Positions 6,710-61,805 of a stretch of DNA of 64,000 nucleotides are shown here, piece after piece. The stretch's first letter is position 1, and each line of letters begins with the position of its first letter. Under the pieces are notes generated by a model. The model saw only the letters and a list, made by a program, of their open reading frames with translations. It did not search any database and was not told where the DNA came from. Source of the stretch: Halisarca cf. caerulea (taxonomy: Eukaryota > Porifera > Demospongiae > Chondrillida > Halisarcidae); NCBI GenBank assembly GCA_963170055.1, contig CAUJGJ010000444.1, forward strand, positions 6,799,618 to 6,863,617, read 5' to 3'. Made by a program: the position numbers and the translations under genes.

Positions 6710-7010
6710 CAAGCAATTCGAGTTTAAAACACTCTTGGGCCACCTATGACCCTGGAAACTCAAATCGCTTGGAAATTGTCGTTATTCACGAAACTAACGC
6801 TTCGAAGATCTCTTCAGCTTTAAAAGACTCTTCGCTGATGAAAGGAGGAGCAAACGTTCCAATTTCCTTGAATTATAGCCAAGAATTTAGTACCGCCTTA
6901 ACGTCCGCTATGTTGTTGACATATATATATATATAGACATCGTTACGGACATTACGGACACTTCTGGTGAAAGTAAAAATAATATAGGGCTGCCGGAAGG
7001 CGGCCCAAAA
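6710..7010 (+). mobile_element. Hairpin-ended element, family A, copy 1 (most diverged)
   Basis: The 5' foldback is at 6710-6771 (CAAGCAATTCGAG ... CAAATCGCTTG). The family body follows (GACTCTTCGCTGAT, the CCGCTATGTTGTTGACATAT segment, a short TATATA run). The 3' hairpin at 6987-7006 has stems GGGCTGCC and GGCGGCCC around loop GGAA, then AAAA. It carries several substitutions relative to copies 2-5, including mismatches in the arms, so it is the oldest copy here. It is non-coding and preceded by AAA like the other copies. Confidence 0.85.
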
Positions 7011-7019
7011 TGATTGAGA

Positions 7020-7300
7020 TTACCACATAATGCTACATGGGCCATTCTACATCACCCAGTGATAATCCATCTGCCCAGAAACTCCTCACTGTTGAACAAA
7101 ACCAAATTTACCTTGCTTTCCACCCTTATGAGTTCCAGAGATCCAGCCGTTCCAGAGATATCCAACATCTTGGCCGGCAAAAACTACCTTACAAACATGG
7201 GGATTAATGGTGGCATCACGAATGTATACCAGACACTGGACAAGGGGCAAAGTAAGAAGAAAGTGATTCTCTTCAAGTCCTGTCCAAATTCAGTGAAGTG
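7020..7300 (+). pseudogene. Degraded R2/NeSL-like fragment (copy 5, left part)
   Basis: The peptide LLSTLMSSRDPAV (about 7112-7150) resembles LVASQMSSRDSTV in copy 1 (about 265-300), the segment before the knuckle. Similarity is short and the rest is not recognisable. The matching right part of the same copy is probably 8700-9062, displaced by the duplicated segment between them. Confidence 0.35.
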
Positions 7301-7368
7301 ATTGGAACTGTCCACGAAACTTTGGACAAGGATCATGGACAGCCTTCCGAAAGGTATGTCCTAGGGTG

Positions 7369-7750
7369 AAGGCCTCAACATTCCATCAATTTCAACGTGA
7401 AACAAATAAAAAGCTTCATTTCATGTTTTGCCAAACTTCTGCTATCAAGAGATAAGATAACTGGTCCATTTTCTAAAAATGTCCCTCCTACAATGAATGC
7501 TCTTGTGGACAGAGATATGCTGAACAAATCAATTCAGTCCATTTTTGACAAGCAGGTATGTCCTAGGGTGAAGATGTGGTAGAACTATAGGTACATATAC
7601 ACACATGCCTATGAACACTCACACACACTAGTATGCAACACTAGTTTGATCACTTGCTGATCAGATGCTAAAGGATGATCTGCTCACATCTGCAACTGCC
7701 TTCCTTCCATCTGTGGTTACATGAGACACCCTTATCTCCAATCCTGGAAT
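7369..7750 (+). repeat. Segmental duplication, unit 1
   Basis: The segment starts AAGGCCTCAACATTCCATCA and recurs at 8338-8657 in the same orientation. Shared landmarks are GACAAGCAGGTATGTCCTAG, ACACATGCCTATGAACACTC and CTGCCTTCCTTCCATCTGTG. The second unit lacks part of the middle. It is non-coding as far as I can see. Confidence 0.75.
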
Positions 7751-8337
7751 GCCTATGAACACACACACACACTAGTTCAATCACTTGCTGATTGAACTAT
7801 GTGAACATGTGTAGCCCTTACATGTTTACTGCCTTGGATTCTAGCCTCAAGTGTAGCTTTGTGTATGATGGCAAGACCTGCAATATGATGACAACTTTAT
7901 GGACAAAGATCGTGATAGTGAACTAAGGGTATTAGTGAACAAGGGTACTATTCCATGTGAAAGAATAAAACAGACTTATTCGCACATATTACTCTGAAGT
8001 ACAAACAGAAGAAGACAAAGTGGCTGGAAAAACACCTGTAAAACAAAGGTAGTTTAACCCTCAGCGATACTTGAAGACTCCATTGTATTCATTAGCTGAT
8101 AATTGTTTATGAGTCCTAATTGGTCCATGTCAGACGTAGGACCATGCATCTGCTTTTCTGGTTGTCTTCCCAGACCATTTGGCAGCCACTATCACTATTA
8201 TCAATAATAATTATTATTATCACTTGGGTTAATCGTACATAGCCTCAATACCATTGTCACTCCATACCTGAAGAAGTAGTGGGCTGGTCTGGCTCAATGT
8301 GGAACACCTGCGATTCTGTATATGAAAACAGCAAATG
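7751..8337. other. No gene recognised
   Basis: AT-rich unique-looking sequence between the two duplicated units. It repeats a short CACACACACTAGTTCAATCA phrase but shows no coding signal. Confidence 0.4.
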
Positions 8338-8657
8338 AAGGCCTCAACATTCCATCAATTTCAACATCATATAGAAAGCTTCAAGTTTCATCCTTTGCCT
8401 AACTCCATGGTCAGAGACATGTGTGGACAGAGATATGCTAAACAAATCTATTCAGTCCATTTTTGACAAGCAGGTATGTCCTAGGCAAAACTATAGGCAT
8501 ATACACACATGCCTATGAACACTCACACACACTAGCATGCACACAATAGTTCAATCACTTGCTGATCGAATGTTGAAGGAGGATCTGCTCACATCTGGAA
8601 CTGCCTTCCTTCCATCTGTGGTTACATGAGACTCCCTCATCTCTGATCCTGGAATGT
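8338..8657 (+). repeat. Segmental duplication, unit 2
   Basis: Second copy of the segment described at 7369-7750. It keeps the same order of landmarks with small deletions, so it is a direct duplication about 970 bp downstream. Confidence 0.75.
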
Positions 8658-8699
8658 CAACAGCATGCTAGCACTGAAGAGAATTGCCCAGAATACTGT

Positions 8700-9062
8700 C
8701 ACTGAAGCTGATGATATATCCCATCTCCACCATCTTCAGTCCCTTGAAATGCCCACTTTGTTGTAAAGTTCAGTCATTGCTACATGTTCTGAACTGTAGT
8801 TTTGCACTCAGACAAAGGCGCTATGATGACAGGCACAGTACTATTCTAGCTCATGTGAAGTCAGTAGTAATTGAGTCACCGCAAGGACATCTCCCTAATT
8901 GCCGATTAGCCCAATTGCGATTACAACCAACCAGAAATTCTTGTCTCAGACTTGAAGCCTGACATTGTCCTGGTCTGTGACTTACAATACGTGCTACCTC
9001 ATTGAGCTTACTGTCTGCTTTTTGATACCATTCTGGCCAGACAGGGCAGAAGAAAGGAAACA
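8700..9062 (+). pseudogene. R2/NeSL-like knuckle and endonuclease fragment (copy 5, right part)
   Basis: KCPLCCKVQSLLHVLNCSFA followed by RQRRYDDRHSTI (frame from 8684) is the same CCHC knuckle and RRY...RH signature as copies 1 and 2. Downstream and in other frames KPDIVLVCD (about 8955) and YLIELTVCF (about 8997) are the endonuclease PD and E strands. Two or more frameshifts separate the pieces. Confidence 0.7.
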
Positions 9063-9094
9063 TTAACCTGTGCAGGATTTAGGAATTTGCACAC

Positions 9095-9295
9095 TGTACC
9101 CAGTCCAACCCACCTCTGTCTAGCTTTATGCCTGTCCAGCCCCATGTATGCCTATCCCTATGCCTGCCTATCCCTATGTCCGTCTAGCCCTATGCATGAA
9201 TGCCCCATGTATGCCTATCCCTATGTCCGTCTAGCCCTATGCTAGCCCTATGCACAAGGCTATCCCTATGCCCGTCCAGCCCTGTGTAGCAAACA
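9095..9295 (+). repeat. CTAGCCCTATG-type minisatellite, locus 1
   Basis: Imperfect short units such as TGCCTATCCCTATGTCCGTC and TAGCCCTATGCATG repeat about eight times. Related tracts occur at 26765-26835 (other strand), 29330-29540 and 35590-35690 (other strand), so this belongs to a dispersed repeat family. Confidence 0.6.
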
Positions 9296-9700
9296 ACCCT
9301 ACCTTGTTCCAATGTTTGACAATTTTTATCCCTACATCTTTTTTTCTTCCATTTTTAAATGGTTTTTATATGGTTTGAGTCTTAGCCAGCCCAGCCCAAT
9401 ACAAATTGGCTATCTTTAAAATGGTCGATTAGAGCCCGTTTTGTTGCAAATCATTAAACTTGAATTGCTTGTTGTCACATTTTGACAAATCGGTAAAAAT
9501 ACAAAGTGCTAGGTAGTCTACACAGTATGACAGCAAAGCAGGAACTTCAAGAGGAAGTTCCCTCTAAACCACTCTGACCATCTGCCTCAGCATGCTCTTA
9601 TCAAGGGGCATGTTGAGGAGTTCTTCCAGTAAAACTGCATTTCAGCCTGTCTGTCTGTCAGTCTGATTTCCGTCTTCCAAACCTCTGCCTTTCTCTTCCT
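9296..9700. other. No gene recognised
   Basis: No motif or repeat stands out. The end at about 9680-9718 is pyrimidine-rich and finishes in ATAG before GTAGG, which could be a splice acceptor for the integrase-core gene that follows. Confidence 0.35.
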
Positions 9701-10650: not shown

Positions 10651-10835
10651 CTATTTGGACCTAGACGTCCAATTGAGGCATTAGTTGCTGAGCTACCCCA
10701 AGCCATCAAGGATGCAATCAGAAGGGTGGGGGACCCTCACCCCATGAATCCACTATTTGGACCAAGATGTACAATTGGGGCATTAGTTTCTGAGCTACCC
10801 CTAGCCATCAAGGATGCAATCAGAAGGGTGAGGGG
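10632..10835 (+). repeat. 102-bp tandem duplication
   Basis: Two direct units, starting at 10632 and 10734, each contain CCACTATTTGGACC, then GCATTAGTT and GCCATCAAGGATGCAATCAG. In the open frame at 10558-11001 both units code for PLFGPR...IKDAIRRV, so the duplication is in frame (102 = 34 codons). It lies just downstream of the integrase-core pseudogene. Confidence 0.8.
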
Positions 10836-10882
10836 AACACGGGAAGACGGAGTAGACACATACATAGAGATTGTACGCATTT

Positions 10883-11195
10883 TAATGCAGCAGGCCACCC
10901 CACAGGAGATTCAAGTGCAGCAGGCCACCACCCCCCAGAAGGTTCAAGACAAGACTGAGGATCCAAGTGCAGCAGGCCACCTGGTTTTGCAGGAGATTTA
11001 AGTGCAGCAGGCCACCACCCCCCAGGAGGTTCAAGACAAGACTGAGGATCCAAGTGCAGCAGGCCACCTGGTTTTGCAGGAGATTTAAGTGCAGCAGACC
11101 ACCCCCCAGGAGATTCAAGACAAGACTAAGGATTCAGACTAAGTGCAGCAGGCCACCTGGTTTTACAGGAGATTCAAGTGCAGCAGGCCACCCCC
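10883..11195 (+). repeat. Minisatellite of GTGCAGCAGGCCAC units
   Basis: GTGCAGCAGGCCACC recurs about six times, alternating with CCCCCCAGGAGGTTCAAGAC and GGTTTTGCAGGAGATT blocks, giving a higher-order unit of about 87-90 bp. Short reading frames across it on both strands are artefacts of the repeat. Confidence 0.8.
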
Positions 11196-11344
11196 AGCAT
11201 AGGAAGAGGGCTCATTTCAAGAACAAGGTCGCCCTAGCATTGTCTTCTTTCAGATACTATTCTCACACGGAAGGTCTTGCGCAGGTAACACACTGCCTTC
11301 ACTGTAGCGAGGGAGTTGACAATCAAGCACATCCTCAACCTGTG

Positions 11345-11706: not shown

Positions 11707-11709
11707 TGT

Positions 11710-13133: not shown

Positions 13134-16100
13134 ATGTCGGACTCTGATGCTTTTGAGGATGATGGTGAACTGCCTAGAAAGAAATCAAGGTGACTTAAGA
13201 AAGTACAGTAATTTTAGAGTATATCTTGTACTTTTCATGTTTGTTTTCCATTTTTGCCATACTTCAGAACTGAAATTGATCTAACTTATGAGCATATGGA
13301 GCCGCTTGCACATAATCTTCATGGTACTACTATCTGCTTGTATTCTGAGAGCAGCAATTCCTCAGATGGGCAGAGCCTGCTCACACCTGAAAGAGAAAAT
13401 AGGTAAGATGAGGATGCAAGCACTGTCAGAGGAGTGATCAAAATTGGTTGCCTTCAGTCATGGTATGACTCTCTCTGCCTTTGTAGCCCACTACTTTTTG
13501 ACAGTGACAAGGATTCTGATGGTCATGAACTTGTTGACTTGACTGAATGTGATTCACCAATCAAGTCTGTGGCAAATCTGAAGGCCAGCATTCATCCAAA
13601 GTATGTTGACATCTCAAAACACTGATGACAAGATATATATTATGACATATGTAGCATGTCCGTAATTTTAAATTCTTTATACATAGGGCTTTGAAGAGAA
13701 ATATGCATGTTACTGAATCAGATGATATAATCAGCTACTGGAATGATGATAGTTCACTTCCCATCCATTCTACACCAAAAGAGCGCATTAGCACCGAGTA
13801 TGCTGCAAGTATCATACTAGATGGTGACTTATCGTCAGAACAGGTGTGTTCAAAGCAGCCCACATGTGTTGACAAAAACTGTCTTTTCGTGGTGGATCTT
13901 AGTGCACTGAAGAATCCAAAAGACCTGGCCTGTGACGACATGGGATCATGGCGTTTAAATAAAACGTATCGAAGCACATTCTCCATAAGGAAAGGAGAAA
14001 TTGTTTTTTCAAAACAGCATTCCAGTAGGAGCACAACCTACACTTTGATCCGACGGTATTACTACAACAAATCTTCTCCAGATGTCAACAAAACGATGTG
14101 CACTGTGCTAGGTAAATTTTGTGTTTGTCCTTGGATTGAGAGCATGCATGCATGATATTGGTGTCATTAAATTCACTAATAATTATTAGATTACATGTAC
14201 TGTGACAATCTAATTTTCATAATAAATATTATTATTATACTTAATTTACATACTGCATGCATATTATCTCATATTGTGTATTAATTTCTATTGATCAGAT
14301 TCCAAGCAAAACCTGATGAGTCGTGCTGTTGTCCAATACCATTTTTCTGAAGACGAGCATCCTATATCTGTGAGACCACACGGGAACTCTAAGAAGGGTA
14401 CTGGGTTCATTCGGACTATGCCTAGTACACTGGACATCCTAGACACTGTAGCTGAGAAACAGACACCAAAGGGTGCTGTACACAGTGTTTCATCACAACT
14501 TGGCGGTATCATCAATTCTCAATCAGCTGGAACCTTGCCAAGAAATCGTCAGCAGGTAAAAGACCGACGCAGAAAAGGGATGAATACCACTGCTAATAAT
14601 GATCCTTTACTTGCAGCCATGTTCATGTGCAAGGAAACAATGCCTGGATTTGTACGCAAGGTGATGGGAGCACCAGACTACATGGTTGTAATATGTGATG
14701 ACCGCACACTGAATAACCTTGTACGCTTTTGTGCAAATCCACACAGCCCGCAGATCTTATCGGTAGATCCTACTTTTAGCCTGGGAAAATTTGATGTAAC
14801 GGTAACCACATATAAGCACCCCTTGGTGGCTACCAGTTCCACTAGCAATCCAACCATGTTGGGACCAGTCTTGATACATCAGCGAAAAAAGTTCCAGAAT
14901 TATCAGTTTTTTGCTAGCAGCCTTCTAGGCATGAGACCATCATTGAAAGATCTGCATGCTTTTGGAACTGATGGTGAAACAGCCTTAGTTGATGCCTTCT
15001 GCTCAGTGTTCCCAAATGCACTTCACCTTCGGTGCTTCTTGCACTTTAAGGATAACATGAAAAATAAACTGGAACATCAGATGCACTTTCCTCAAGATAT
15101 ATCCAAAGACTTCATTGCTGATGTGTTAGGAAGCGTTTTTGGGCGAGAGAAAGGTTTAGTGGATGCAGAGGATGAAGCAATGTTTGATGTACAGCTTCAT
15201 ACAATGAAAGAACACTGGGATCATAAAGAGCAAGCATTAACTAATTCCACCCCAACCTTTCATGGCTGGTTTGTCAAGAATTGTGCTGAAACTATCAGAA
15301 CTGCAATGCTGGCCCCTATCCGAATTGCAGCTGGACTTGGATCACCCCCCAGTCCCTACTACACGAACAGTGTGGAATCCATGAACAGCCTTTTGAAAAG
15401 GGAAATGGGCAACAAAAAGTTGGATCTCTGTCAGTTTATTGAGCAGCTTCAGCGTGTTGTAGATGCCCAGTATTCTGAAGTGGATCGTGCTCTGGCTGGT
15501 TTGGGAGAGTACTCGGTGTGTGAGAACCTATCAGAATTCCACTTCACTGCATCAGAATGGTGCCACATGAATACTGAGCAGAGGAAAAGGACTTTGAGCC
15601 GATTCGTCAATTACACCCCAAAACAGCAAGAGATTCCAATCACCAGTGAGAATAGTGATGAAGAAGCCAACCCCTTGAGCGTTTTACAAATCCCAGGTTA
15701 TGTTGCTTCCACCATTTGGAGGCAACAGAAAAGCTTACAAGGTCACAACAACATTACTGCTGCTCCTGGTTCCTCTACCACATGTGCCTGGATGGTTGCT
15801 AGCCTTAGTGGGTCAAGGCCACACTATGTGAAGCTCGAGAGAGGTCGCTACATGTGTGACAAGGATTGTACATTCTTTCAATCCACAAAAATCTGTGCCC
15901 ATATTATTGCCATAGTTAATATGGAAGGCAAGCTGGAGGAATTCCTCAGCACACACACTAAGCAGTGTTCAATTGTCAATGCCACAACACTTGCTGAAAG
16001 TGGGCTACCTCACTCTGCTATTGGCAAGAAACCATCAAAACGAAAAGGAATGTCAAAGAAAACTAGTGCAAAAGCGAGAAAAATTTCTGCAGCAACCACT

Positions 16101-17078
16101 GCACGAACTTTACGGAAGACTTTAACAACTGCCTTGAGACATAACGATTCAGAGGTATCATATGTGCAGGTTCAACCGTCCACACCACACCTATCCTCAC
16201 AACCTGGCACATTGCAAGTTTCACCATCACAACCTGGCACATTGCAAGTCTCGCCATCACAACCTGGCACATCGCAAGTCACACAATCACAGCCTGGTCC
16301 ACTACAAGTTCCTCTGTCACAGCCAGGTCCATCCCAGCCTGGCACATCACAAGTTCCCCCATCACAACCTGGCCCATTGCAAGTTCCACCATCACAGCCT
16401 CGTCCATCACTAGTTCTTCTGTCACAACCAGGTCCATTACTAGATGCACCATCACAACCTGGTCCATCGCAAGTTCCACCATCACAGACTGGTCCATCAC
16501 AAATTCTGTCGTTGCCAGGCCCATTAATTTCACCATCACAGTCTCGGTCACCCCAACCTTCTCAACCTCTCTCACCACTAGCTCAGTTGCAGCCTGACCA
16601 TGCCACTCCGTGGAGTACACATCCAGCATGGCAAGCAGCTAGTCCACAATTGCAAGTTCCACTACAGGATCAATCAATGTCATGGCCTACATACTCTATG
16701 ACCCCCTGTGTCAGACATCAATGTATGCCATCAGTAACAGTGGGATGCGCACCATTTAATTTGGTTTTCATCAAGGGAAACATCGCAATCTGCAGTGGGT
16801 GTAGGCAAAGGTTTCTAAAAAAAGTTAATGGTGCTGTCGCGGATCCCCCAGATGATATTGTCATCCAGCATATGGAGGAAAGATCCTTTAAAAGCCCCAC
16901 AACAGGGCTACCAACAAGCAAGCGTGGTAATGCTTATTACCATGTTAATCTGCCCTGTCTCCGGACTAATTGGCCCCACTTTGTTGGACAGCACATCAAC
17001 ATTGACCCAATGGTCAAATCCCAGCTTAGGATGGAACACAAGACCATGCTACTTAATTGCTTGGGTATCCACATTTAG
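13134..17078 (+). CDS. MULE transposase with SWIM zinc finger, five exons
   Basis: The proposed exons are 13134-13189, 13268-13402, 13487-13600, 13687-14111 and 14299-17078. All introns are GT-AG, the phases agree at every junction, and the joined length (3510 nt) gives 1169 residues and a stop. The start is the ATG of MSDSDAFEDDGELP. The catalytic triad is D400 in SVDPTFSLGKFD, D468 in AFGTDGETALVDAF and E603 in TNSVESMNSLL, with the CxxH-type LRCFLHFKDNM after the second Asp. A SWIM-type finger, CDKDCTFFQSTKICAH, follows near residue 760. A basic segment (KKPSKRKGMSKKTSAKARK) may be a nuclear signal. Then come about fourteen SQPGPxQVPP-like repeats and a C-terminal block with CSGCRQRF that I do not recognise. 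Its role would be cut-and-paste transposition of this element, in the nucleus. Confidence 0.85.
16195..16560 (+). repeat. Proline-rich coding minisatellite in the MULE gene
   Basis: About 30-bp units starting TCACAACCTGG or TCACAGCC encode SQPGxxQVxP repeats. The frame is kept through the whole tract. Repeat number is likely to vary between alleles. Confidence 0.85.
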
Positions 17079-17475: not shown

Positions 17476-18448
17476 CACTCATAACCATTCTACTAGATCT
17501 AACAACTGAACTTGTACTCAAAACACACATAATTAAATGAGGGGGTTACACATGATAACCAACAACGTTGAAATGGGACACGTAACACCATCGACTCTCA
17601 CACTAGGTTCCACCAGCAGCCAGATTTGTTTGTGACACTTTCTTGCCAAGCAGGACAAGAGACGTCATTGTGTTGTGTGCCACACCACAATGGGAAAACT
17701 GTCTTTTGCTGCTCTGACTGCACTCCATCATCACCCATTAGCTTATGCCTTATCCCTTCAAATTTTATCACACCAGGAGCTAAGTCAAACTAAACCTCAA
17801 CACGACTAAACAATAGGATAGTCTAGAACTATCACACATGGACAAGGCAGCCTGTATACATATGATACAAGAAATAATGAGTTGACATTTGACTACTAAC
17901 TTACACCCCTAACTGACACCGAAGGAAAGCTGTAAGTACTTAAAAACAGATCCCAAGATATGTTCTGTAAAATTCTGGAGGACACATGATAAAATTACAT
18001 ACCTGTCAGGGTTCTTGCGAGTCCCCTCGAGGTGAGATCTAGTTTGAAGTGTCCAAAAACCTTGGAGTTTGTCGACAACTGTACAAATTTGAATAGCGAT
18101 TACCTGTACCGTTTGGAAGATATAGGTCTTTTTATATGGACGTTTGTATCATTGGGTCATCAAGAAAACTCATCCTAAAAGGTGTTGTTAGGGAAAACTG
18201 ACCGATACTCCGTGTATTGCTGTACTTGAACATTTTTGTGTTTTTTGTTACACAAATTGTATAAACTTATATATTATGGTTATCAAAACTGACTTTAGCA
18301 ACAGCGCCCGTATTCTCGTTTCAAGAAGATAGTCGACAAGTGACTCACCTTGTTTAATTCACTTGTTTCACCTTTTGCAGGACAATCTAGTAGTATCTGA
18401 AACTTGGCAGATACACAGTTTAGAAACTTTTTGACCAACATATGTAAA
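17476..18448. other. No gene recognised
   Basis: Unique-looking sequence without coding signal. It is the host or older-element DNA into which the MULE (left) and a hairpin element (right) inserted. Confidence 0.4.
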
Positions 18449-18740
18449 CAAGCGATTCGAGTTTAAAAAACTCGTGGGCCGCCCACGGCCCTGGAAACTC
18501 GAATCGCTTGGAAATCGTCTTCGAAGAACTCTTCTGGTCGAAAAGACTCTTCGCTGATAAAATCAGAAGCGAACGAATGAATTTTACCGAAATATAGCCG
18601 AAAGATTACGTACCGACTTCGCGTCCGCCATGTTGTTGACATATATATATATATATATATATAGACATCATTCCAGACGTTCCAGACACTTCCGGTGAAA
18701 GTAAAAACAATATAGGGCCGCCTTCTGGCGGCCCAAAAAA
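18449..18740 (+). mobile_element. Hairpin-ended element, family A, copy 2
   Basis: The 5' foldback is 18449-18510 (CAAGCGATTCGAG...CTCGAATCGCTTG, enclosing GGGCCGCC-CACGGCCC). The 3' hairpin is 18715-18734 with stems GGGCCGCC and GGCGGCCC around loop TTCT, then six A. A stretch of about 23 bp after the foldback (GTTATTGACTAAAATAATAC in other copies) is missing. The internal TA run is 18641-18662. No coding capacity. Confidence 0.9.
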
Positions 18741-22158: not shown

Positions 22159-23083
22159 TTGTTCAGGTTATCATTTATTTGGGAAATTTCTTCCTTAGGC
22201 ACGTATGTACCCAAGGGATGGACAGCAGCACCGTGCTTAGCGAGTCGTTTTGTGGCTTTACAGCAAGTTTCCAGGGTCATGGTCCCTGCTCAGTCTCAGC
22301 TTCCACCTGACGCCTTACAAGTTCACTCCCCCTTAAAGGGGCAGGCTTGGAAATCGGCATTGTTGGATCATCCTAACCGGTCTTGGGTGGACTGCTTGTT
22401 GTCGGGGATCCGTCATGGTGTTCACATTGGGTTTGGGGGAGGCATTGTGCGTTCCGCAAAGAATAACCTCCAGTCGGCGTTGGCTAATCCGGCAGTAGTT
22501 GAAGCCTACCTGGAGAAGGAGTTGCAGAATGGGACCATTTCCGGGCCTTGGACAAAAGGAGAGGTACCTACCTTCGGTCATTTTAAACCGTTTTGGTGTC
22601 ATTCCCAAATCTGGTAGGCCTGGGAAATGGCGTCTGATTATGGATATGTCCTTCCCAGATGGGTACAGTGTCAACAGCGGCATTGATGACAACTTGACAG
22701 GCATGGCTTATTCATCAGTGGTCAATGCCGCTCGTATGATGCTCCAATTTGGGAAGGGGGCTTTACTGGACAAGATCAATGTGGCTAACGCTTATCGAAT
22801 TGTCCCAGTACATCCCGCGGATCGGTTTTTGCTAGGCATGTCTTGGAAGGGTAAAGTGTATGTGGACAGACAGCTTCCATTTGGGTTATCTTCAGCCCCG
22901 GTGATTTTTAATGCGTATGCTGACGGTTTGGAGTGGGTTATACACAAGCGGAGTAGCAGCAATCCTCCACTACTTGGATGATTTTCTAGTGATGGGACCT
23001 GCTGGGTCGACTGGCTGCCAGTCTGCTTTAACGACTTTGTCATCGACCTGTGCTGAACTCGGGATTCCCCTAGCTGCGGATAA
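22159..23083 (+). pseudogene. DIRS-type reverse transcriptase, truncated
   Basis: The pre-RT segment reads HPNRSWVDCLLSGIRHGVHI, then NNLQSALANPAVVEAYLEKE. After a frameshift near 22570 the RT core follows: FGVIPKSGRPGKWRLIMDMS, then LLDKINVANAYRIVPVHPAD with the first metal-binding Asp, then VDRQLPFGLSSAPVIFNAYA. After another shift comes the catalytic box ILHYLDDFLVMGP (about 22965-23000). The protein is cut at LGIPLAADNK by the family A element that begins at 23084, so RNase H, methylase-like and tyrosine recombinase parts are all missing. Confidence 0.75.
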
Positions 23084-23384
23084 CAAGCGATTCGAGTTTA
23101 AAAAACTTGTGGGCCGCCTACGGCCCTGGAAACTCGAATCGCTTGGAAATCGTCGTTATTGACTAAAATAATACTTCGAAGAACTCTTCTGGTCGAAAAG
23201 ACTCTTCGCTGATAAAATCAGGAGCAAACGAATGAATTTTACCGAAATATAGCCGAAAGATTACATAACGACTTCACGTCCGCCATGTTGTTGACATATA
23301 TATATATATACATCGTTCCAGACGTTCCGGACACTTCCGGTGAAAGTAAAAACAATATAGGGCCACCGGAAGGCGGCCCAAAAA
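23084..23384 (+). mobile_element. Hairpin-ended element, family A, copy 3
   Basis: The 5' foldback is 23084-23145. The 3' hairpin is 23360-23379 with stems GGGCCACC and GGCGGCCC around loop GGAA, then AAAA. The left flank is the DIRS-type RT and the right flank is CR1/L2 RT, so it marks a junction between two unrelated elements. The TA run is at 23296-23311. Confidence 0.9.
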
Positions 23385-24332: not shown

Positions 24333-25022
24333 AAAAGTGATCTACAATCTGTTTCCAACTAGTGCCATCAAGAGGAACTTAAACTTAACATAGACAAGTG
24401 TTCCATCCTCAGATTTTCAAACAGAAGTCAACCCGGCTTTAGCCCATCGAACCAAGTACGTGACCTACTATGAATTCTAGTCAACAACCAACTCAGTTTT
24501 GTAGATTATTACAAATCAATGTGTTCCAAAGCTTACATGAGCCTAGGTATCATTCACAGAACACTAAACTTGCAATCTATGGATCTCAATCTTAACAACT
24601 GTACCTCACACTAGTTTACTCAAAGCTTACATATTGCTCACAATTGTGGAGACCACTTCAAATTAAGCATATCACTATACTTGAAAATTTACAAAAACGA
24701 GCCACTAAACTCATCACAAATGATTATGTACTGTATCTAATTACATGATTCGTCTCTTAGGACTAAAACTTATTCTGCTCATGCATTGGTATGAATTACA
24801 AGATCTGATGTATCTAGTCCAACACATTGCATTACAGGAGCCATACTATTCAAGCCTGTTTTAAAGGCAGAAAATGAAAAAAACTTGTATGGTTCTGTCA
24901 GACAAGTTTCTGCAAAACAATATAAAAAAATCACTTCAAGAAAATCACTTTCTTGTGCTATGCCACAACTGGACAACCCTTTGCTGAAGGCCCTATTAAG
25001 AAGGAAATAAACATCAAAAGAA
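24333..25022 (+). pseudogene. CR1/L2-like reverse transcriptase, C-terminal part
   Basis: LKLNIDKCSILRFSNRS (about 24370-24420), VNNQLSFVDYYKSMCSKAYM (about 24480-24542), SLGIIHRTL and LRTKTYSAHAL-type pieces correspond to the thumb and connection region of CR1/L2 RT. The last readable block is EPYYSSLFKG-like near 24840. Several stops interrupt it. The end at 25022 is set by a family B hairpin element. Confidence 0.65.
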
Positions 25023-25230
25023 CAAGTAATTCGGGTAAAAAAACCGTGGGGCTGCTGCCCCTTATCCTGAATTACTTGGGAATATGTTATAATGGTTTAT
25101 CTCTGCAACAATGGTATCAGGTTTACAAAGGATGTTTATCCTTCAGCTTTGTATTCTTTGCCTTTGTTGCCATTTTGAAGAAAAATGCAAAATGCAGCGA
25201 ATTTTCTTCAAAATTGCAGCATTCACTTTA
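25023..25230 (+). mobile_element. Hairpin-ended element, family B, partial (5' end)
   Basis: The 5' foldback at 25023-25078 reads CAAGTAATTCGGG ... CCTGAATTACTTG around GGGGCTGCTGCCCC. The family body follows: GGTTTATCTCTGCAACAATG, then GTATCAGGTTTAC and TTATCCTTCAGCTTTGTAT. The 3' hairpin is absent; the body runs out near 25230. Confidence 0.8.
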
Positions 25231-25637: not shown

Positions 25638-26048
25638 TATTATACTATTAGGCACTGTTGTATTTTCTATAGTGGCTTTTGAATCTATTCTTTCTGGCAA
25701 GTATGAGCACTACAAGACGCTAAAATATCTTCGTTTGAAAGGCACATGTGGCTTCCAAAAGTTGGCTATTTTGTTGCTAATAAATTCCTTTTTTCTCTTG
25801 TGCGTGACAGAAATGGCAAACGATGACATTTAGACTCTAAGTACACATTTAAGCTACACATTTAACTATATTTTGTTCAAATTTTCCATCTATCATTTGA
25901 ATTTGCCGCTTTTCCGAGCAGTTGCATTTAGCTTAGGCCTAGAGACACAGATTATGGACTAAACTGTCCCTAATACGTCTACTCAATATTCTACCGATGG
26001 AGATTTGGTTTACTGAAATAGTTTCCAAGATAATAGACAAATCCTGAA
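25638..26048. other. No gene recognised
   Basis: AT-rich, no repeat or coding signal that I can support. Confidence 0.4.
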
Positions 26049-26256
26049 CAAGCGATTTGAGTTTAAAAAACTTGTGGGCCGCCTACGGCCCTGGAAACTC
26101 AAATCGCTTGGAAATCGTCGTTATTGACTAAAATAATACTTCGAAGAACTCTTCTGGTCGAAAAGACTCTTTGCTGATAAAATCAGGAGCAAACGAATGA
26201 ATTTTACCGAAATATATCCAAAAGATTACGTACCGACTTCGTGTCCGCCATGCTGT

Positions 26257-26301
<45 letters not shown>

Positions 26302-26374
26302 TCGTTCTGGACGTTCCGGACACTTCCGGTGAAAGTAAAAACAATATAGGGCCGCCTTCCGGTGGCCCAAAAAA
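26049..26374 (+). mobile_element. Hairpin-ended element, family A, copy 4
   Basis: The 5' foldback is 26049-26110 with arms CAAGCGATTTGAG and CTCAAATCGCTTG. Relative to copies 2, 3 and 5 both arms carry a compensating change. The 3' hairpin is 26349-26368 with stems GGGCCGCC and GGTGGCCC around loop TTCC, the exact reverse complement of the copy 3 hairpin. The TA run is long (about 26258-26297). Confidence 0.9.
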
Positions 26375-31146: not shown

Positions 31147-32550
31147 GACCGGCTCAAGCCTTTACCAGTACAGAAGTGTTCGAAGTGATGACTATGCATT
31201 TGATCTCAGCAATGATTGAAGCGTCTTAAGCGAGGGAACATTAGTGGAGGAAGACCATTAAGCAAAGAAGGCAGAGGGTTGAACAAATGATAATATTAGC
31301 GATTGAGGAAAAGCAAACTGGACATTCAGCGCCCGATAGCCGATATCGAAGAACAAGGTGTGTAATCTTTGTTTGATCTTAAATTCAAATAGAAAAGTCC
31401 ATTTTACTAACTTGAATACCCTATGAAAGGATGAATGATCTACCTTTTGAGCCTTCAAAATGTGCTTTAGGCCTACCATTAACAGCAAAATTGCAGGGCG
31501 ATTTCGTATAAGTACTGCAGTTCACGATAGCTACTATCAATCGTGAATATGATCTTCCAAGCTTCCTTACCCAACTATATGTATGTGACATTAACTTTTG
31601 GCAAAAAAAGACTTTCACATGTACAAAAACTAGAGCAAATATCGCACAGCACAATCACCATGGCTTCTATGCCCTGAAAATGTCACGCACATATCACATG
31701 ATGGAAGCCTTACACACACCCAATTTCCATGTCCCACATGTGGGAGGAGTTGCCTTGTGACCTGTATTTGAAGTATAAATACACGAAGGACTTCGGATTA
31801 TGATGAATTCATTGAGAACTTTCACCGACTGTGTATCATTGTAAGTTGAGGATGTTGGCTAGAAATAGATCAACAAAGGACTTATAGGAGATTACTCTTA
31901 CTCTATTTCTTAGAGAAACCTTCTACGAAGCCTTTTATTAATCCTATGGAGTAACCGTAGCACAATAGTTGCAAGTTACTGTTGATTTCACCGTTGTTCT
32001 CCTACGTGTGGTGCGGATTTGGGTTTCTTGAACTTGATGTCAATGATAATAATAAGGATCCCAATCCACAAAAAGCTTAGATTAGGTCTTTAGACGGCTT
32101 CAGACAGCCCTGCGAAAGGGGTGAAGTCATTCGTTAAGCTGACGAGCTCCTTCTGCATTCTACATTGCATTGAGCAAAGAAATATTGGGGTATATAACTC
32201 ATGAAAGAAAACTCTATTCTCGCTTACGATCATGAAAACGTAAATTTCCGCTTCGTACTCAAACACTTTTCTAATGGAGGCCATTTTGCTCCTACGTTTA
32301 CTTACGTTTCTCTGTAAACTGCGATGACAATTCCGTATATGAATACATACTTGCATTCTTTTCAGCTATTGTACAGATTTAATAAAGGACACTATGGCTA
32401 TGAAACTTATACTGAAGACTTAGTATATCCCTGAGTATCAGACAGCACTGTTAGAAAATAATCGGAAAAAGATATGCGAATACGATGACTGAAGGGCTAG
32501 CCACAATAGCAGCCACTATAGTGGCTCATGAACTATACATAAACAGATAA
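31147..32550. other. No gene recognised
   Basis: I see no coding signal longer than chance and no clear repeat in this 1.4 kb. It is the largest plain stretch in the first half of the window. Confidence 0.4.
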
Positions 32551-32615
32551 ACAGTTGCTTGTTCAAAGTCTTCTTTTCTTCCAGCAGCCACTTTTATCCG
32601 CCTACTTCCTGTTGC

Positions 32616-32656
<41 letters not shown>

Positions 32657-35700: not shown

Positions 35701-35959
35701 AATCCCCAACATGGAAGTTTTTTAGATACTTAGATAAGAAACCTGTACACTAACATTTGTGCCCTCAGCTTTGAAGCTGCCTTGCCTCCCAGCCGTTTTT
35801 CATGTTTTTATATGTTTAGGGAGAATGTGTACACATTCGTTAAAAACGTACAAAATTCTTTCAAATTTGACATCGAACAAAATGTAATACAGCAGTCTAC
35901 ACAATGGTACTAGTTGTTAGAAGATAGTGCATGCTTGGAGAAAGAAATAAAACAAAAAA

Positions 35960-36260
35960 CAAGCGATTCGAGTTTAAAAAACTCGTGGGCCGCCTACGGC
36001 CCTGGAAACTCGAATCGCTTGGAAATCGTTGTTATTGACTAAAATAATACTTCAAAGAACTCTTCTGGTCGAAAAGACTCTTTGCTGATAAAATCAGGAG
36101 CAAACAAATGAATTTCACCGAAATATAGCCGAAAGATTACGTACCGACTTTGCGTCCGCCATGTTGTTGACATATATATATATATATATCGTTACAGACG
36201 TTCCGGACACTTCCGGTGAAAGTAAAAACAATATAGGGCCACCTTCCGGCGGCCCAAAAA
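35960..36260 (+). mobile_element. Hairpin-ended element, family A, copy 5 with 15-bp flanking repeat
   Basis: The 5' foldback is 35960-36021 (perfect outer arms). The 3' hairpin is 36236-36255 with stems GGGCCACC and GGCGGCCC around loop TTCC. The 15 bases before the element (35945-35959, AAATAAAACAAAAAA) recur at 36258-36272, two bases after the 3' hairpin. If this is a target duplication its length resembles retroposition rather than TIR-MITE insertion. A-richness weakens the case. Confidence 0.9.
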
Positions 36261-39075: not shown

Positions 39076-39181
39076 TACAGGCCATGAGGGACAGGGGACC
39101 TTCCTGTACATGGTTGCATAATATGCTTAAAAATGACAGAGAAAATAGAAGGCAGATGGTATGTTTTCTTTAGAGAAGCTT

Positions 39182-39975
39182 TTCCATTTGATTCCAAACA
39201 TTCCTCCTCTCTGTAGGTGCTTGGTATCAACGAAAACCTTTCAGAAATCTTTTCAAATGCACAGATTGTTGTGAAAGGCTCTTACAAAGCTTTACAAGTT
39301 TCTAGTTTGCTGTAGTGATGAGACAAAGGGACAAGATCGATTTGGTGAAAGGAGAGGAACAGTGCCCATGGCAACCGTAGCTGAAACTTCGCCAAAATGT
39401 AGCAAATTGTTTTCAAAATTGCCATTTTGATTCCAAACATTTTTTCAAAATTTCCATTTGATTCCAAACATTCCTCCTCTCTGTAGGTGCTTGGTATCAA
39501 CGAAAACCTTTTAGAAATCTTTTCAAATGCACAGATTGTTGTGAAAGGCTCTTACAAAGCTTTACAAGTTTCTAGTTTGCTGTAGTGATGAGACAAAGGG
39601 ACAAGATCGATTTGGTGAAAGGAGAGGAACAGTGCCCATGGCAACCGTGGCTGAAACTTCGCCAAAATGTAGCAAATTGTTTTCAAAATTGCCATTTGAT
39701 TCCAAACATTTTTTCAAAATTTCCATTTGATTCCAAACATTCCTCCTCTCTGTAGGTGCTTGGTATCAACGAAAACCTTTTAGAAATCTTTTCAAATGCA
39801 CAGATTGTTGTGAAAGGCTCTTACAAAGCTTTACAAGTTTCTAGTTTGCTGTAGTGATGAGACAAAGGGACAAGATCGATTTGGTGAAAGGAGAGGAACA
39901 GTGCCCATGGCAACCGTGGCTGAAATTTCGCCAAAATGTAGCAAATTTTTTTCAAAATTGCAACAAAGGCAAAAA
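39182..39975. repeat. Tandem array, three units of about 270 bp
   Basis: TTCCATTTGATTCCAAACAT starts units at 39182, 39452 and 39721. Each unit includes GTAGGTGCTTGGTATCAACG, AGGCTCTTACAAAGCTTTAC and GTGCCCATGGCAACCGT(A/G)GC and ends with GCCAAAATGTAGCAAATT. Units look nearly identical. The GCTGAAACTTCGCCAAAATG phrase and the sequence after the array match family B bodies, so the array seems to be an expanded internal part of a family B-type element. Confidence 0.85.
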
Positions 39976-40160
39976 ATACAAAGCTGAAGGATAGAACTTC
40001 TTCGTAAACCTGATACCATTATTGCAGAGATAAACCGTTGCTTTTGTTAAAGTCTTCTTTTCTTTCAGCAGCCATTTTTATTCGCTTACTTCCTGTTGCA
40101 TACATATATATATATATATAATTCGCAATGAAAACAATATATACTATATTATTTTCATTA
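39976..40160 (+). mobile_element. Family B-type element end without hairpin
   Basis: AAAGCTGAAGGATAGAACTT, then CGTAAACCTGATACCATTAT and GCAGAGATAAACCG are reverse-complement counterparts of the body after the 5' foldback at 25080-25150. TTTCAGCAGCCATTTTTATT, ACTTCCTGTTGCATACATAT and AATTCGCAATGAAAACAATA then match the 3' side. The GC-rich 3' hairpin is replaced by ATATACTATATTATTTTCAT. Confidence 0.6.
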
Positions 40161-42307: not shown

Positions 42308-42460
42308 TACCCACAATTTTGTATGCCTCAAGTATAATGCATGCTGATTTACTCCTGTGGCTGAGGGCAGTCGTTTTTGCATCCATTATTGTTGTTGAAA
42401 TAATGTTTCAATGCATACCCATGCAAAACCCCTCCATGCCAAGATACCATCCCCTGGGAA

Positions 42461-42809
42461 CAAGTAATTCGAGTTAAAAACTCGTGGGGCTACTGCCCCA
42501 CATGCTCGAATTACTTGCAAAGCATTGGAGTGTAAGTGCACAGCTGAACATTCATTGAACATACTGTTTATTGTAACTGGACAATTGTTTTGAAAACAAT
42601 AGCCATATTTGGCAATTGTTTTCAAAATAATTCCTATAACTCATTCCTGTATAAATTCATACTTCTCTATTACTATTATATAAATTCTCTATGATAAGAC
42701 TTTTCTTCAAATCTATATTATATGTATATATATATATATCAGACGAGCGTTACACACCGGAAGTCCAAATGAAAACAATATAGGGGCTGCCTGTGGCAGC
42801 CCCTAAAAA
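42461..42809 (+). mobile_element. Hairpin-ended element, family B, complete copy
   Basis: The 5' foldback is 42461-42517 with arms CAAGTAATTCGAG and CTCGAATTACTTG around GGGGCTACTGCCCC. The body has a TA run (42725-42740), then GAGCGTTACACACCGGAAGT and AAATGAAAACAATATA. The 3' hairpin is 42783-42803 with stems GGGGCTGCC and GGCAGCCCC around loop TGT, then TAAAAA. The architecture is the same as family A with different stem sequences. Confidence 0.9.
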
Positions 42810-46619: not shown

Positions 46620-46802
46620 TGTAGCAAGAAAATTTGCTACATTCTGGCGAAATTTCAGTAACAGTTTTATCCTTCAGCATAAAACCATGGCTGAAACTGC
46701 CAAAATGCCTACCATTGTTACAGAGATAAACCGTTATATTCGCAAGTAATTTGGGACGAGGGGCGGCAGCCCCACAGGTATTTTACCCAAATTACTTGTT
46801 TA
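46620..46802 (-). mobile_element. Hairpin-ended element, family B, partial, inserted in gypsy pol
   Basis: The element lies on the minus strand. Its 5' foldback is 46743-46798 (plus strand reads CAAGTAATTTGGG ... ACCCAAATTACTTG) around GGGGCGGCAGCCCC. The body (CAGAGATAAACCG, CCAAAATG, GGCTGAAACTG, TTATCCTTCAGC) matches 61620-61790 in reverse. TAGCAAGAAAATTTGCTA at 46621-46638 is a small inverted repeat at the junction. The 3' hairpin is missing. Confidence 0.75.
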
Positions 46803-53560: not shown

Positions 53561-53744
53561 TCGTCGCACTAAAAGAAGCAAAAGGAAAAGCTGTCTCCTG
53601 CGATTGAACACCGCCATCACGAAAAAAAAGCGTCGCACGGAGGCTCAAACGTTTGCAATGTGTGAATTGACTACGTATACGTTAAGTTGCGTTACATTAA
53701 TTTAATTATATTCATAGAACAAGTTGCATTGCGTTGCAGTGTGA
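53561..53744. other. No gene recognised
   Basis: Short spacer upstream of the Harbinger gene, possibly its terminal region. I could not identify an inverted repeat. Confidence 0.35.
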
Positions 53745-53814
53745 ATGGGCCTTTACACTTCCGAAATAAGTAATGAAAATAATATAAGGCCCGCCTGTGG
53801 CAGCCCCTAAAAAG
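53745..53814 (+). mobile_element. Family B-type 3' end
   Basis: TTACACTTCCGAAATAAGTA then ATGAAAATAATATAAGG leads into the 3' hairpin (GGCCCGCC, loop TGT, GGCAGCCCC) and CTAAAAA. Only the 3' part of the element is here, with a slightly mismatched hairpin. Confidence 0.75.
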
Positions 53815-55636: not shown

Positions 55637-55637
55637 T

Positions 55638-58325: not shown

Positions 58326-59690
58326 GTAATGTACACAATCATCATGTAACATGTAGTTGTTGTTATTAGTATTAACTGATGTTCATGTGCATGCATTCTC
58401 GGGGTCTTTATTGGTGGTTTGTTTTGTTGTATTATGCTGATGCTTTGTTATTATTACTTCATGTAACTATTATACGTAGCTATACAGTGTTGTATTATTT
58501 TATTATTACAAAATTTAATGTATTTTTGTTATTTATTACTTTGTTTATGGAACAACCTTGCAGCTAGTGTGTCACTTCCCCTGCAATCAACAGCACTGGC
58601 GGAATTGGTGTCTATTTTGGAGCACTGCTATGAAAACAAATTTCTTGCCACCTCCTTGTCCTTGGTGTAGCAGTCATATGCAACCACTATGAGATTTTAT
58701 TTGCCCAGTTTCAGCAGGTTCCAGTCACCATTGTATACGGTGAAGTTTGTTGTGGCAAAACTCAAGCCCCCTCTTTGGTTGGAGTCTAGAACACCAAATT
58801 TTTAGGGTTAGGGTTTCGACTTGTGCGCGGGACTACCAGCCCAAGACAACTTTCATCTGTTCCATGAATATGCCCTGCCTGCAGCGGATTGCTTCTGATT
58901 CCATGTGAGTATTGCTGAAAACAAAATGATACTCTATGATTCACATGTCATTCTCCTTACAGGCTAATCACTAGAGATGTCTTGGTGCCTTCTGGTACAC
59001 CAAGTTATTCACGGACAGCAGCATTGCAAGATACTATTGACCTGTATATGCATTGTTGAAGAGAGAATGTTGTGGACATTATAACTTGTCCATCTCTCAG
59101 ACATTTGTCTCAAAAGGTAGCACCGCCACCATGATACCTTCAAAGAGGAGTAAATCTGGTAGGGAGATTCTGAAATGTGTTCCAGTGCACAAGAGAGCAT
59201 TGGATACAGCAAGTTTAAAGAAGCTAGAGGAAGGTGTGTACCTTCATACGCCTTTGTTATAATTACAGCCGCCAATGTACATAATATTTCGCACTTTTCC
59301 TTAATTTTAAAATGACAACAGCTTCAGGGTTTGTTGCTCCATGAAAATCACCGAGGTGTCAAGCCATTACTCCCAATGGTCATTCCACTCCAGTGCATCA
59401 ACCATTGAGTCCATGGCCAAGCAAGTATAATGTATTATGATGTACCTATCTGTTTGCTTGTGCGTAGATTGTTATTATTGCAGCGGATATGCCTATTCTA
59501 ATATATATATAGTGTCCTCTCACTAGGTGTAACCACACACATGTGTTGGTGAATTTGTGATTATGTGATATTTATTATAAATTGTGTAGTTTAGCCATGT
59601 GCATGTACGCATGCATGCATATATTATGTGCACGTGTGAGTTTTGGTGCATGCTTACAAAGATGCTTAATATTTAATTCTGCCTGACATT
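58326..59690. other. Exon-like scraps, no gene that I can assemble
   Basis: A frame at 59053-59262 contains SKRSKSGREILKCVPVHKRA. Phrases such as CATCTCTCAGACATTTGTC (59090) recur at 61063 as CATCTCCCAGACGCAAG. A TTAGGGTTAGGG trace is at 58804. AT-rich otherwise. Confidence 0.35.
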
Positions 59691-59763
59691 CTATGGAGTC
59701 CTTTATGTGCAGGTGTAGAGCACGCATTTCTATTGGACCCTCACAAATCTCCTCAGCCCAATG
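59684..59763 (+). repeat. Mini-exon-like repeat, copy 1 (damaged)
   Basis: CATTCTATGGAGTCCT then, after an 18-bp interruption, TTTCTATTGGACCCTCACAA and CTCCTCAGCCCAATG before GTAATAG. The acceptor AG has become AT in CTATGG. Confidence 0.7.
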
Positions 59764-60638
59764 GTAATAGTATGTGTACCATATGGCGGGTAATATTTGT
59801 GGGGTAAAAAGTTCATTGTTTTCGTGGTTGGAAAGGAAACCACAAAATATTTACTCACAAAATTTAGTAACAGACTGCATATGGTACAGATCTGAAGAAT
59901 TTACGAAGGAATCGAGATGGGTATCTTTCAAACTCAGTATTATCCATAATGAAGAACTTTTAAGAAAGGTAACGGCAGTAATTTACCCGATCCCAGTGGA
60001 CCTTTAGCGCGATCAGCACTGCCATTGTTGCAAACAAGGAACTTGGCCGCATTACCGGCATGGAAACATCGTAACGATTACCAATTTCCCTTTGGCATTG
60101 AAGTTTATCAGCACCTTCAGCTTCCCAAATGTTTTGTACTGCTTCAAATTCACTGAACTTCAAACTATCTCCTGTTTGTTACAGTTCTGGAATTACTTAT
60201 GTCAGTTAGTCTTTGTATTGTGCTGACCAATAATAAAGCTCTTAAACTGCGATCAAAGCGATAGAATGTCTAGGTTTTCTTTAGAAAATTTCGTGAATGT
60301 TCACTTCTCCGTAATTTAGGTATTATGAGCTACCACTGTGTACAATTTGCCTTGTGTGGTGGCGAATTGAGGGTGATCAATTCTAGCCACTTACTGTACC
60401 AATTAACCTCAATTAGGAAGTGTGCCAACATCGTGACATGTGCTACATCGCAAATGTCGTCACACTTTTCCTTTGATCCACCTACAATTCACCCCACACC
60501 AGGATACAAGGTTACAAAGACATCATTGATGTTCGTAAGCCTACACATGTGTGTGGGGGTGGATGGGTGTGAATGTGTGTGTGTGTTTGATGTGTTTTGG
60601 TACATGCTTACTGTGATTATTGCTGTCTAACATTCTAG

Positions 60639-60692
60639 GGAGTCCTGAGTACACATCTCTATTGGACCCTCACAAATCTCCTCAGCCCAATG
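60639..60692 (+). repeat. Mini-exon-like repeat, copy 2 (intact splice signals)
   Basis: A 54-nt segment bounded by TCTAACATTCTAG on the left and GTAATTG on the right, reading GSPEYTSLLDPHKSPQPN. Fifty-four nt is 18 codons, so it could be skipped or included without changing frame. Confidence 0.6.
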
Positions 60693-60840
60693 GTAATTGT
60701 ACGTGTATAAATTATGGTTATAAAGACCATAATAATAGGGCATACATCATCTCTGCTGGGTCTACAGACATCCCCTCAACTCTTCACAGTCTTCCAGTAT
60801 GTACATACATTATGGTTATGAAGGCATTGCTGCTGCTCCT

Positions 60841-60853
60841 GCTGTGTGTGTGT

Positions 60854-60895
<42 letters not shown>
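60841..60895. repeat. (GT)n microsatellite
   Basis: GT run interrupted by ATGT. A shorter one is at 61086-61105. Confidence 0.9.
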
Positions 60896-60900
<5 letters not shown>

Positions 60901-60994
60901 CATGCATGCGAGTGCAATTTCATACTTGATATAATATTATGAGTGTTCATGTGTTTTGGTGCATGTTTACTATAGTTACATATTAACCCTCTAG

Positions 60995-61046
60995 GGAGTC
61001 CTGAACACACATCTCTATGGGGCCTTGGAAAAGTCCTCAGCTTGTA
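60995..61046 (+). repeat. Mini-exon-like repeat, copy 3
   Basis: AACCCTCTAG precedes GGAGTCCTGAACACACATCT and CTATGGGGCCTTGGAAAAGT then CCTCAGC. It diverges from copies 1 and 2 at the right end and lacks the donor GT. Confidence 0.6.
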
Positions 61047-61184
61047 TTAATTTCACCATCTCCCAGACGCAAGTATATATATCTGTGTGTGTGTGTGTGT
61101 GTGTATCATTGTAACTGCTAAAGAAGTAGAGTATATAGAATAATATTTATTATTATTGCAATGTATGGTATGTCGGCATATAGT

Positions 61185-61504
61185 ACTGTTACATGTGCTC
61201 TAGATCTGGTATTGTTTCATTCAAGACCAGCATATGTAAAAAGGCTTCTCCGAATATCCATGAAGGATGTGCCCTGCAAGACTGGGCCTACAATCAAAAA
61301 GCCTCCTATGCGCCACAGGAAGCGAACAACCAAGGTCTTGCCAGGAAAAGATACTTGCAGGATCTGCCATCAAAACCTTGCCAAGCTAAACACATGATGG
61401 TAGAGTGTGAACAGTGTGGCCAATGGTTCTACTATAAGTGCGTAAACAATGGCAACCATAAAGAGGCTGAGGAAATGGTATTTAGTTGCCCTGACACTTG
61501 TTAG
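61185..61504 (+). pseudogene. PHD-like zinc-finger C-terminus
   Basis: A basic segment (KKPPMRHRKRTTKVLPGKDT) is followed by CRICHQN (frame 61161) and, after a frameshift near 61390, MMVECEQCGQWFYYKCVNNG then FSCPDTC (frame 61193) before the stop. The spacing C-x2-C ... C-x2-C-x-W-F-x2-K-C ... C-x3-C fits a PHD finger, which binds histone tails. The end of the gene coincides with the family B hairpin at 61504. Confidence 0.5.
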
Positions 61505-61805
61505 GGGCTGCCTGTGGCAGCCCCATATAATTTTCATTACAAATTCTGGAAGTGTATATATACAACAGGAAGTAGGTGAATAAAAATGGCTGCTGAAAGA
61601 AAAGAAGACTTTAAAAAGCAACAGTTTATCTCTACAAAAATGGTATCAGGTTTACGAAGAAGCTTTATCCTTCATCTTTGTATATTTCGCCTTCGTTGCA
61701 ATTTTGAAGAAAATTCGCTACATTTTGGTGAAGTTTCAGCCATGGTTTTATCCTCCAGGATAAAACAGTGGCTGAAACTGCCAAAATGCAGCAAATTTTC
61801 TGCAT
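61504..61805 (-). mobile_element. Hairpin-ended element, family B, minus strand
   Basis: The 3' hairpin is 61504-61524 and, read in the direction of the element, has stems GGGGCTGCC and GGCAGCCCC around loop ACA, the inverse of the TGT loop at 42783. Next inward are TTTTCATTACAAATTCTGGA, AACAGGAAGTAGGTGAATAA, AAATGGCTGCTGAAAGAAAA and GTTTATCTCTACAAAAATGG. The 5' foldback is not found; the body ends near 61805. Confidence 0.8.

Follow-up and report, generated by a model that had tools for sequence, protein, structure and literature searches.

Short elements with paired hairpins in a sponge genome are very probably non-autonomous rolling-circle transposons of the Helitron2/Helentron branch

A 64-kb stretch of the 194-Mb assembly of the sponge Halisarca cf. 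caerulea (G000:C412:6799618-6863617, referred to as the window) contains eukaryotic transposon genes and several copies of a short element with a GC-rich hairpin at either end. The initial annotation of these elements described two families, A and B, in which the GC stems of the two ends match within a family and differ between families, and concluded that one factor reads both ends although no enzyme is visible. What kind of element has such paired hairpins, and what moves it? Our analysis makes it very probable that the elements, which fall into at least four related families (A, B, C and D), are HINE-like, non-autonomous rolling-circle transposons of the Helitron2/Helentron branch.

The five A copies and the complete B copy are all there and share the plan ascribed to them, i.e., AA followed by CAAG, a foldback of 57-62 nt enclosing a GC hairpin, a TA run, a second GC hairpin and an A-run. 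They had been read on the wrong strand. The true orientation of the elements is the reverse, with the palindromic hairpin as the 5' end and the foldback as the 3' end. On the opposite strand the complete copies have the layout TTTTT^palindromic GC hairpin, conserved lead, (TA)n, variable body, foldback of 57-62 nt and CTTGTT. Strands of copies are given here in this Helitron orientation, opposite to the earlier one (plus for the A copies). The complete copies, and one example of each end, are:

6708..7011, minus strand: family A, complete; end hairpin inverted (loop GGAA)
18447..18739, minus strand: family A, complete; usual hairpin orientation (loop TTCT)
23082..23384, minus strand: family A, complete; end hairpin inverted (loop GGAA)
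26047..26373, minus strand: family A, complete; long TA run
35958..36260, minus strand: family A, complete; 15-bp direct repeat of the flanks, single in the L070 paralogous empty site
42459..42809, minus strand: family B, complete
18715..18734: example of a Helitron 5'-end palindrome, GGGCCGCC-TTCT-GGCGGCCC, adjoining the T-run (A-run on the plus strand)
18449..18510: example of a Helitron 3'-end foldback, with the GC word GGGCCG in the loop

The A copies of the window are 75-95% identical among themselves. The B copy has 40 further near full-length places in the genome with 89-97% identity to it (best 40 of 1535 candidates). Searched with a degenerate pattern, the foldback end has 808 exact matches in the genome against 0 for the reversed pattern, which is far beyond chance. 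The hairpin with its AATATA lead gave 296 matches of A type and 501 of B type, with 0 in the controls, and the element patterns had 0 matches in the viral contigs scanned.

For the analysis of the ends, 66 rows were read. Removal of three outer or duplicate starts and ten rows with an unmatched hairpin, and addition of two nested B inserts, left 55 copies, 46 counted as A and nine as B; one of the 46 (L068:1705) is actually a C copy. Loci L009-L078 were chosen by a pattern demanding AA before CAAG, so the fixed AA is independent evidence only in the B loci and the window copies.

Both ends have a palindrome or hairpin. The GC word GGGCCG(CC) or GGGGCTGC(C) stands in the 5' hairpin and again in the loop of the 3' foldback, in family A 29 nt from the foldback end (counted on the window copies), and thus forms an asymmetric terminal inverted repeat. 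As far as the available text of the respective sources goes, Helitron2 elements likewise have hairpins at both ends, with the word of the 5' hairpin found again in a second hairpin, tens of bp from the 3' end, and insert between TTTT and T or C (PMC5148889), while HINEs have palindromic subTIRs, microsatellites and a T-rich target without target modification (PMC4067079). Since the layout of end hairpins, repeated word, microsatellite, T-rich target and no duplication is this published Helitron2/HINE plan, the family-matched stems are the asymmetric terminal inverted repeats (subTIRs) of the Helitron2/Helentron branch. Standard terminal inverted repeats are absent, as the initial annotation had said, the ends being a hairpin and a foldback, and the copies show neither these repeats nor the fixed-length target duplication of cut-and-paste miniature inverted-repeat elements. 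The 5'-TC and 3'-CTRR termini and A/T insertion of canonical Helitron1 elements were not found in the ends of the 55 copies.

The insertion target can be read from the flanks. After the hairpin, the 46 copies counted as A have A at each of positions 1-5 in 89-96% and at position 6 in 28%, a sharp limit at five; in the nine B copies the run is T followed by at least four A. We matched joined flanks against uninterrupted paralogous sites in the fetched DNA. The paralogous empty sites of L008 (three paralogues), L062 (two places in L059), L060 (L070 and L057), L004, L005 and L002 lack the element together with one to three A, and nothing is duplicated. Alignments for L006, L011, L056 and the L020 match of L060 are less clear. 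Flanks sharing at least nine bases were found in one of the 55 copies (shuffled pairs: mean 0.16 copies, maximum 2), and two more copies share eight, within the range of the shuffled pairs. Insertion into a T-run without target duplication is thus seen in the empty sites of six insertions and in the 55 flank pairs, with one exception. The insertions in L002, L005 and L021 hit the same TTTAAA spot in the foldback loop of another copy.

These features bear on a quite different origin, namely SINE-like retrotransposons with a structured RNA head, a 3' stem-loop and a short A tail, inserted by LINE machinery at A/T-rich sites. Such elements would explain why the A-run directly follows the hairpin and why a variable body lies between a common head and tail, and copy 35958 does have a 15-bp direct repeat of its flanks. 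The other 54 of the 55 copies have no such duplication (7-20 bp would be expected for SINE/LINE insertion, and it is clear in this one copy), and the empty sites place most of the A-run in the target. No Rfam family was found at cut-off in the window, and the supposed head is of the type of terminus that lies at constant spacing from Rep and PIF1 domains, as described below. The empty sites and this spacing largely refute a SINE-like origin, which we regard as highly improbable.

The enzyme missing from the initial annotation is encoded outside the window, by large elements that share an end with a sister family, D. The Helitron_like_N profile (PF14214), by which the Rep domain was located, has 119 matches genome-wide, fragments included, and none in the span of the window. 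An element with an open frame of 2413 codons (L080, L081) has an A-type foldback, preceded by AA, 5.95 kb downstream of its Rep domain. The sequence after this foldback is family D, previously seen in L021, L029 and L042. Among the best 40 of 1070 D matches, 17 have the foldback 5.2-7.4 kb downstream of a Rep domain on the required strand, compared with a mean of 0.77 and a maximum of 4 in 2000 random placements on the contig. Eleven of the 17 fall at 5.90-6.00 kb (random mean 0.0075, maximum 1). All 17 also have a PIF1 helicase match between Rep and foldback on the same strand. An example of a Rep domain paired with a foldback lies on contig C369, with Rep at C369:4380201-4380818 and the foldback at C369:4374251. 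Family D therefore has a partner with Rep and PIF1-type helicase that shares its 3' terminus, and families A, B and C would be expected to have partners of the same kind.

None of the 17 Rep-foldback intervals has a match to the endonuclease profile PF03372, the single pair on the contig of the window (C412) having been checked by eye, although a diverged endonuclease could escape this search and PF14529 was not searched. By this measure the strict mark of a Helentron, an apurinic-type (AP-type) endonuclease fused after the helicase, was not found in the 17 intervals. The known parts of the partner frame contain a DUF6570 match (86.1 bits), an STPRs match and, at the end of the frame, a weak OTU match of 22.9 bits, just below the cut-off of 23.3; judging from its length, the frame of L080 runs on to the OTU piece in L081 and ends there. 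All 12 spanning matches of a 1502-base upstream query reach its last bases, so the 5' end of the partner lies beyond L080. The minus-strand frame 3-2861 of L080 begins with the motifs DVELNPGP and DVERNPGP, which we take to be 2A-like; they would suggest ribosome skipping near the start of the Rep-helicase protein. A match of L080 to L041 was dropped, L041 being CA repeats only. Contig C369 (14.2 Mb, 7.3% of the assembly) has 95 of the 119 Rep-domain matches and may be a special repeat-rich chromosome. Of the 41 near full-length B copies listed, which include that of the window and are the best of 1535 candidates, 23 also lie on it.

With Helitron-type Rep domains in the genome, and one lineage of them ending in the same kind of foldback, the enzyme class of the IS200/IS605 elements invoked by the initial annotation is not needed. 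These elements use a single-strand logic with hairpins at both ends, and a eukaryotic relative, with a Y1 transposase moving single-strand circles by means of subterminal hairpins, would account for hairpins at both ends, no target duplication and a fixed short target at one end. It would not account for Helitron-type Rep and PIF1 domains keeping a constant distance to this kind of foldback, and we consider it, with no search for a Y1 transposase made, exceedingly unlikely. The idea of single-strand transposition itself survives, as a single-strand replicative mechanism fits the data.

Several points weigh against placing the elements in the Helitron2/Helentron branch. No Rep domain lies at 5.2-7.4 kb from 23 of the 40 D copies (four have one at another distance, and 19 have none within 12 kb). 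The D query was taken beside a Rep domain, which by itself accounts for one of the 17, and a list of the best 40 among 1070 candidates favours close kin. For A, B and C no partner of their own was found; D has the foldback in common with these families and differs in the body. The tie to the Rep-helicase runs through the 3' foldback only. With regard to the target, the longest flank match has a mean of 4.73 bases in the 55 copies against 4.42 in shuffles (sd 0.12), partly through copy 35958, in which a true-looking 15-bp duplication is single in the empty site. Finally, the junction base count in L008, L062 and L004 is blurred by paralogue differences.

In the available part of its description, Helitron2 of Fusarium oxysporum (FoHeli) shares with the sponge elements the end hairpins, the recurring 5' word, insertion after TTTT without duplication and a Rep-helicase partner without a detected endonuclease (PMC5148889). 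It differs in its end sequences, and in the sponge elements the 3' word is enclosed, as part of the loop, by a terminal foldback with a long stem (13-16 bp). The sponge partner frame has DUF6570 and the weak OTU match, and OTU proteases have been reported in Helentrons (PMC4067079, as far as available). Like HINE/DINE-1 elements, including Cg_HINE of the oyster, the sponge elements are short and gene-less, with palindromic subTIRs, a body microsatellite, a T-rich target and no duplication (PMC4067079; PMC7492417, both in part). The lack of PF03372 matches (0/17) places the partner lineage closer to Helitron2 than to the endonuclease-bearing Helentrons. Canonical Helitrons share the Rep-helicase, the 3' hairpin and the absence of target duplication, but the sponge elements lack 5'-TC...CTRR-3' ends and A^T insertion and have hairpins at both ends. 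The IS200/IS605 enzyme is of a different class. The sponge elements are new families of an already known kind of element. Their mechanism is that of the Helitron2/Helentron branch and is only partly shown here, in that the anatomy and copy number, the T-run target and its lack of duplication, and the constant position of the D foldback downstream of Rep and PIF1 domains are direct observations.

According to this mechanism, a Rep-helicase supplied by autonomous relatives would nick at the 5' hairpin and displace one strand as far as the 3' foldback; the matching GC word might help to mark termination there. The single strand would then be joined to a new T-run and the insertion completed by host replication, so that no target duplication would form. 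The same Rep-helicase may move families A, B and C. Placement in the Helitron2/Helentron branch removes the apparent mystery of paired, matched hairpins without an enzyme and points to partner genes in the same genome. To our knowledge, end recognition by Helitron2-type elements is poorly known. A genome with many hundreds of copies in several families, a partner lineage and also paralogous empty sites makes it testable.

One factor reading both ends is plausible from the known mechanism, but the co-change of stems from which it had been deduced is weak. The stems do match within families, yet there are only two states, GGGCCGCC in A and GGGGCTGCC in B and C, which differ by one substitution and one extra G. 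With one state common to B and C, co-change is seen once at most, at a single split between families. Among A copies, one end varies independently of the other. In 45 of the 46 copies counted as A, both ends vary in six, the foldback only in seven, the hairpin only in seven and neither in 25 (Fisher p 0.15). In one copy, L075, the two ends carry an identical variant word.

Unlike these words, the long outer stem of the foldback does co-vary across families in an alignment of 22 sequences and 13 pairs, its pairing being kept when both sides change. Here 95.1% of cells are paired versus 91.1% in shuffles, and slid versions of the alignment reach 20-43%. Double-changed cells number 23 versus 10.4, with 0/500 shuffles as high, though relatedness among the rows inflates such counts. 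Of the five measures, two are not above the shuffles (pairs with a double change, 4 vs 3.7; further pair types, 8 vs 9.8).

A further feature of the 5' end is that the hairpin adjoining the T-run occurs in both orientations. Inverted loops were found in 12 of the 100 A-type hairpins listed (of 296), six with GGAA and six with AGAA, and in at least 83 of the 501 B-type hairpins, these 83 having the exact reverse-complement loop ACA. Three hairpins of the window (61504, 6987 and 23360) are in reverse complement. At the other end, one pattern for an inverted A-type foldback had 0 matches genome-wide, and no inner foldback loop was inverted among 70 readable ones (first 70 of 453) or among 30 in the fetched DNA. 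One end hairpin is thus often turned round, and the foldback end was not seen inverted. A tree was built from 42 of the 46 copies counted as A, with the hairpin left out (L022 and L046 were excluded for length, L032 for its broken hairpin and L068:1705 as a C copy). In this tree the six inverted copies need six changes (shuffled mean 5.7). The strongly supported branches force at least two inversion changes and many forks are weak; that the inversion arose more than once is firm, while six times is not.

How the inversions arise can be explained in two ways. They are probably ordinary mutations after insertion, in which a replication template switch in a perfect GC palindrome turns the loop without any transposition step, in parallel to the small inversions at chloroplast hairpins. 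The visibly inverted part is indeed the loop of 3-4 nt only, and the scatter in the tree (six copies, six changes) is expected under either mechanism. The inner foldback loops, inverted in 0/70 and 0/30, speak against such mutation, although this comparison hairpin has a shorter stem (6 vs 8-9 bp). Mutation over time also sits uneasily with an inverted share that is no lower in B (at least 83/501) than in A (12/100 listed), despite the 89-97% identity of the best-listed B copies to that of the window versus 75-95% among the A copies of the window, an age contrast that is rough because the B list favours similar copies.

The other explanation, which we hold to be doubtful, is that the 5' hairpin is turned round during transposition in flip-flop fashion, the end being copied through its own hairpin and the 3' foldback being copied without inversion. 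This could occur by hairpin-primed or strand-switching synthesis on a single-strand intermediate, as at parvovirus ends, and such an event might then, just as tentatively, be recorded in about one in six to eight copies. If true, the inverted hairpin would directly record an intermediate not described in the available portions of PMC5148889, PMC4067079 and PMC7492417. Frequent inversion is likewise unmentioned for FoHeli in what was available of PMC5148889. A narrow literature search gave no paper on an inverted 5' hairpin, from which we do not claim that it is absent from print.

The end hairpin is also a place of breakage. Copies in L027, L030, L032 and at window position 63480 end inside or just before it, and such breaks fit a fragile palindrome. 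On the minus strand of L064, just beyond 2725, an A copy has GGG and three telomere-type TTAGGG repeats in place of its end hairpin, which looks like the healing of a broken end.

Longer relatives with an open frame between the same hairpins had been suggested as a place to look for an enzyme. One such candidate did not hold. An A copy in L013/L079 encloses transposase-like frames, with an A foldback on one side and an A hairpin end on the other, in the order expected of an autonomous partner of family A. The enclosed element has inverted repeats of its own at both ends, adjoining TTAA, and the A copies at window 6898-6901 and in L063 have TTAA at the spot of its insertion. We rejected it as a partner, a role with next to no probability, and regard it as a separate TTAA transposon nested in an A copy. 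It spans ~4.6 kb, from ~1673 in L013 to ~3350 in L079, with inverted ends and TTAA on both sides, and its frames resemble a Kolobok-type transposase. L051, with ~2.2 kb between its ends, was also rejected as a longer A relative, as the extra 1.9 kb (~930-2780) sits inside the TA run. The (TA)n run is an entry point in other copies too, the same unrelated insert of ~330 bp being found in L050 (~1265-1590) and L063 (~1240-1570). A hammerhead-like motif in copy 6708 was dropped, there being no Rfam family at cut-off.

The remaining pieces in the window had been described as several partial B copies. They are real repeat pieces, but five of the six (25021, 46800, 39912-40140, 61498-61804 and 32545-32638) belong to the third family, C. 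B-like sequence in the window comprises the complete copy at 42459, the piece at 63480-63565 and perhaps 53739-53814.

25021..25221, minus strand: family C, partial body with the foldback end (Helitron 3' end)
46626..46800, plus strand: family C, foldback end and part of the body; overlaps the 3' end of a reverse-transcriptase open frame
39912..40140, minus strand: family C, body and lead to the hairpin, without hairpin or foldback
61498..61804, plus strand: family C, hairpin-side end, lacking the foldback; its hairpin at 61504-61524 is inverted (loop ACA)
32545..32638, minus strand: family C fragment including the TA run
53739..53814, minus strand: B/C-like hairpin-side end, truncated
63480..63565, plus strand: family B hairpin-side end, broken within the hairpin (stops at GGG)

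In addition to the end hairpins, family C has a long inverted repeat within its body (25091-25221, 39912-40140 and 61525-61804). Elsewhere in the window, an open frame of 927 codons (14295-17078) has a weak MULE transposase match (22.6 bits, Pfam cut-off 27.6). At 39141-39948 a unit of 269 bp is present three times head-to-tail (89-100% alike), and the last unit runs into the C piece at 39912.

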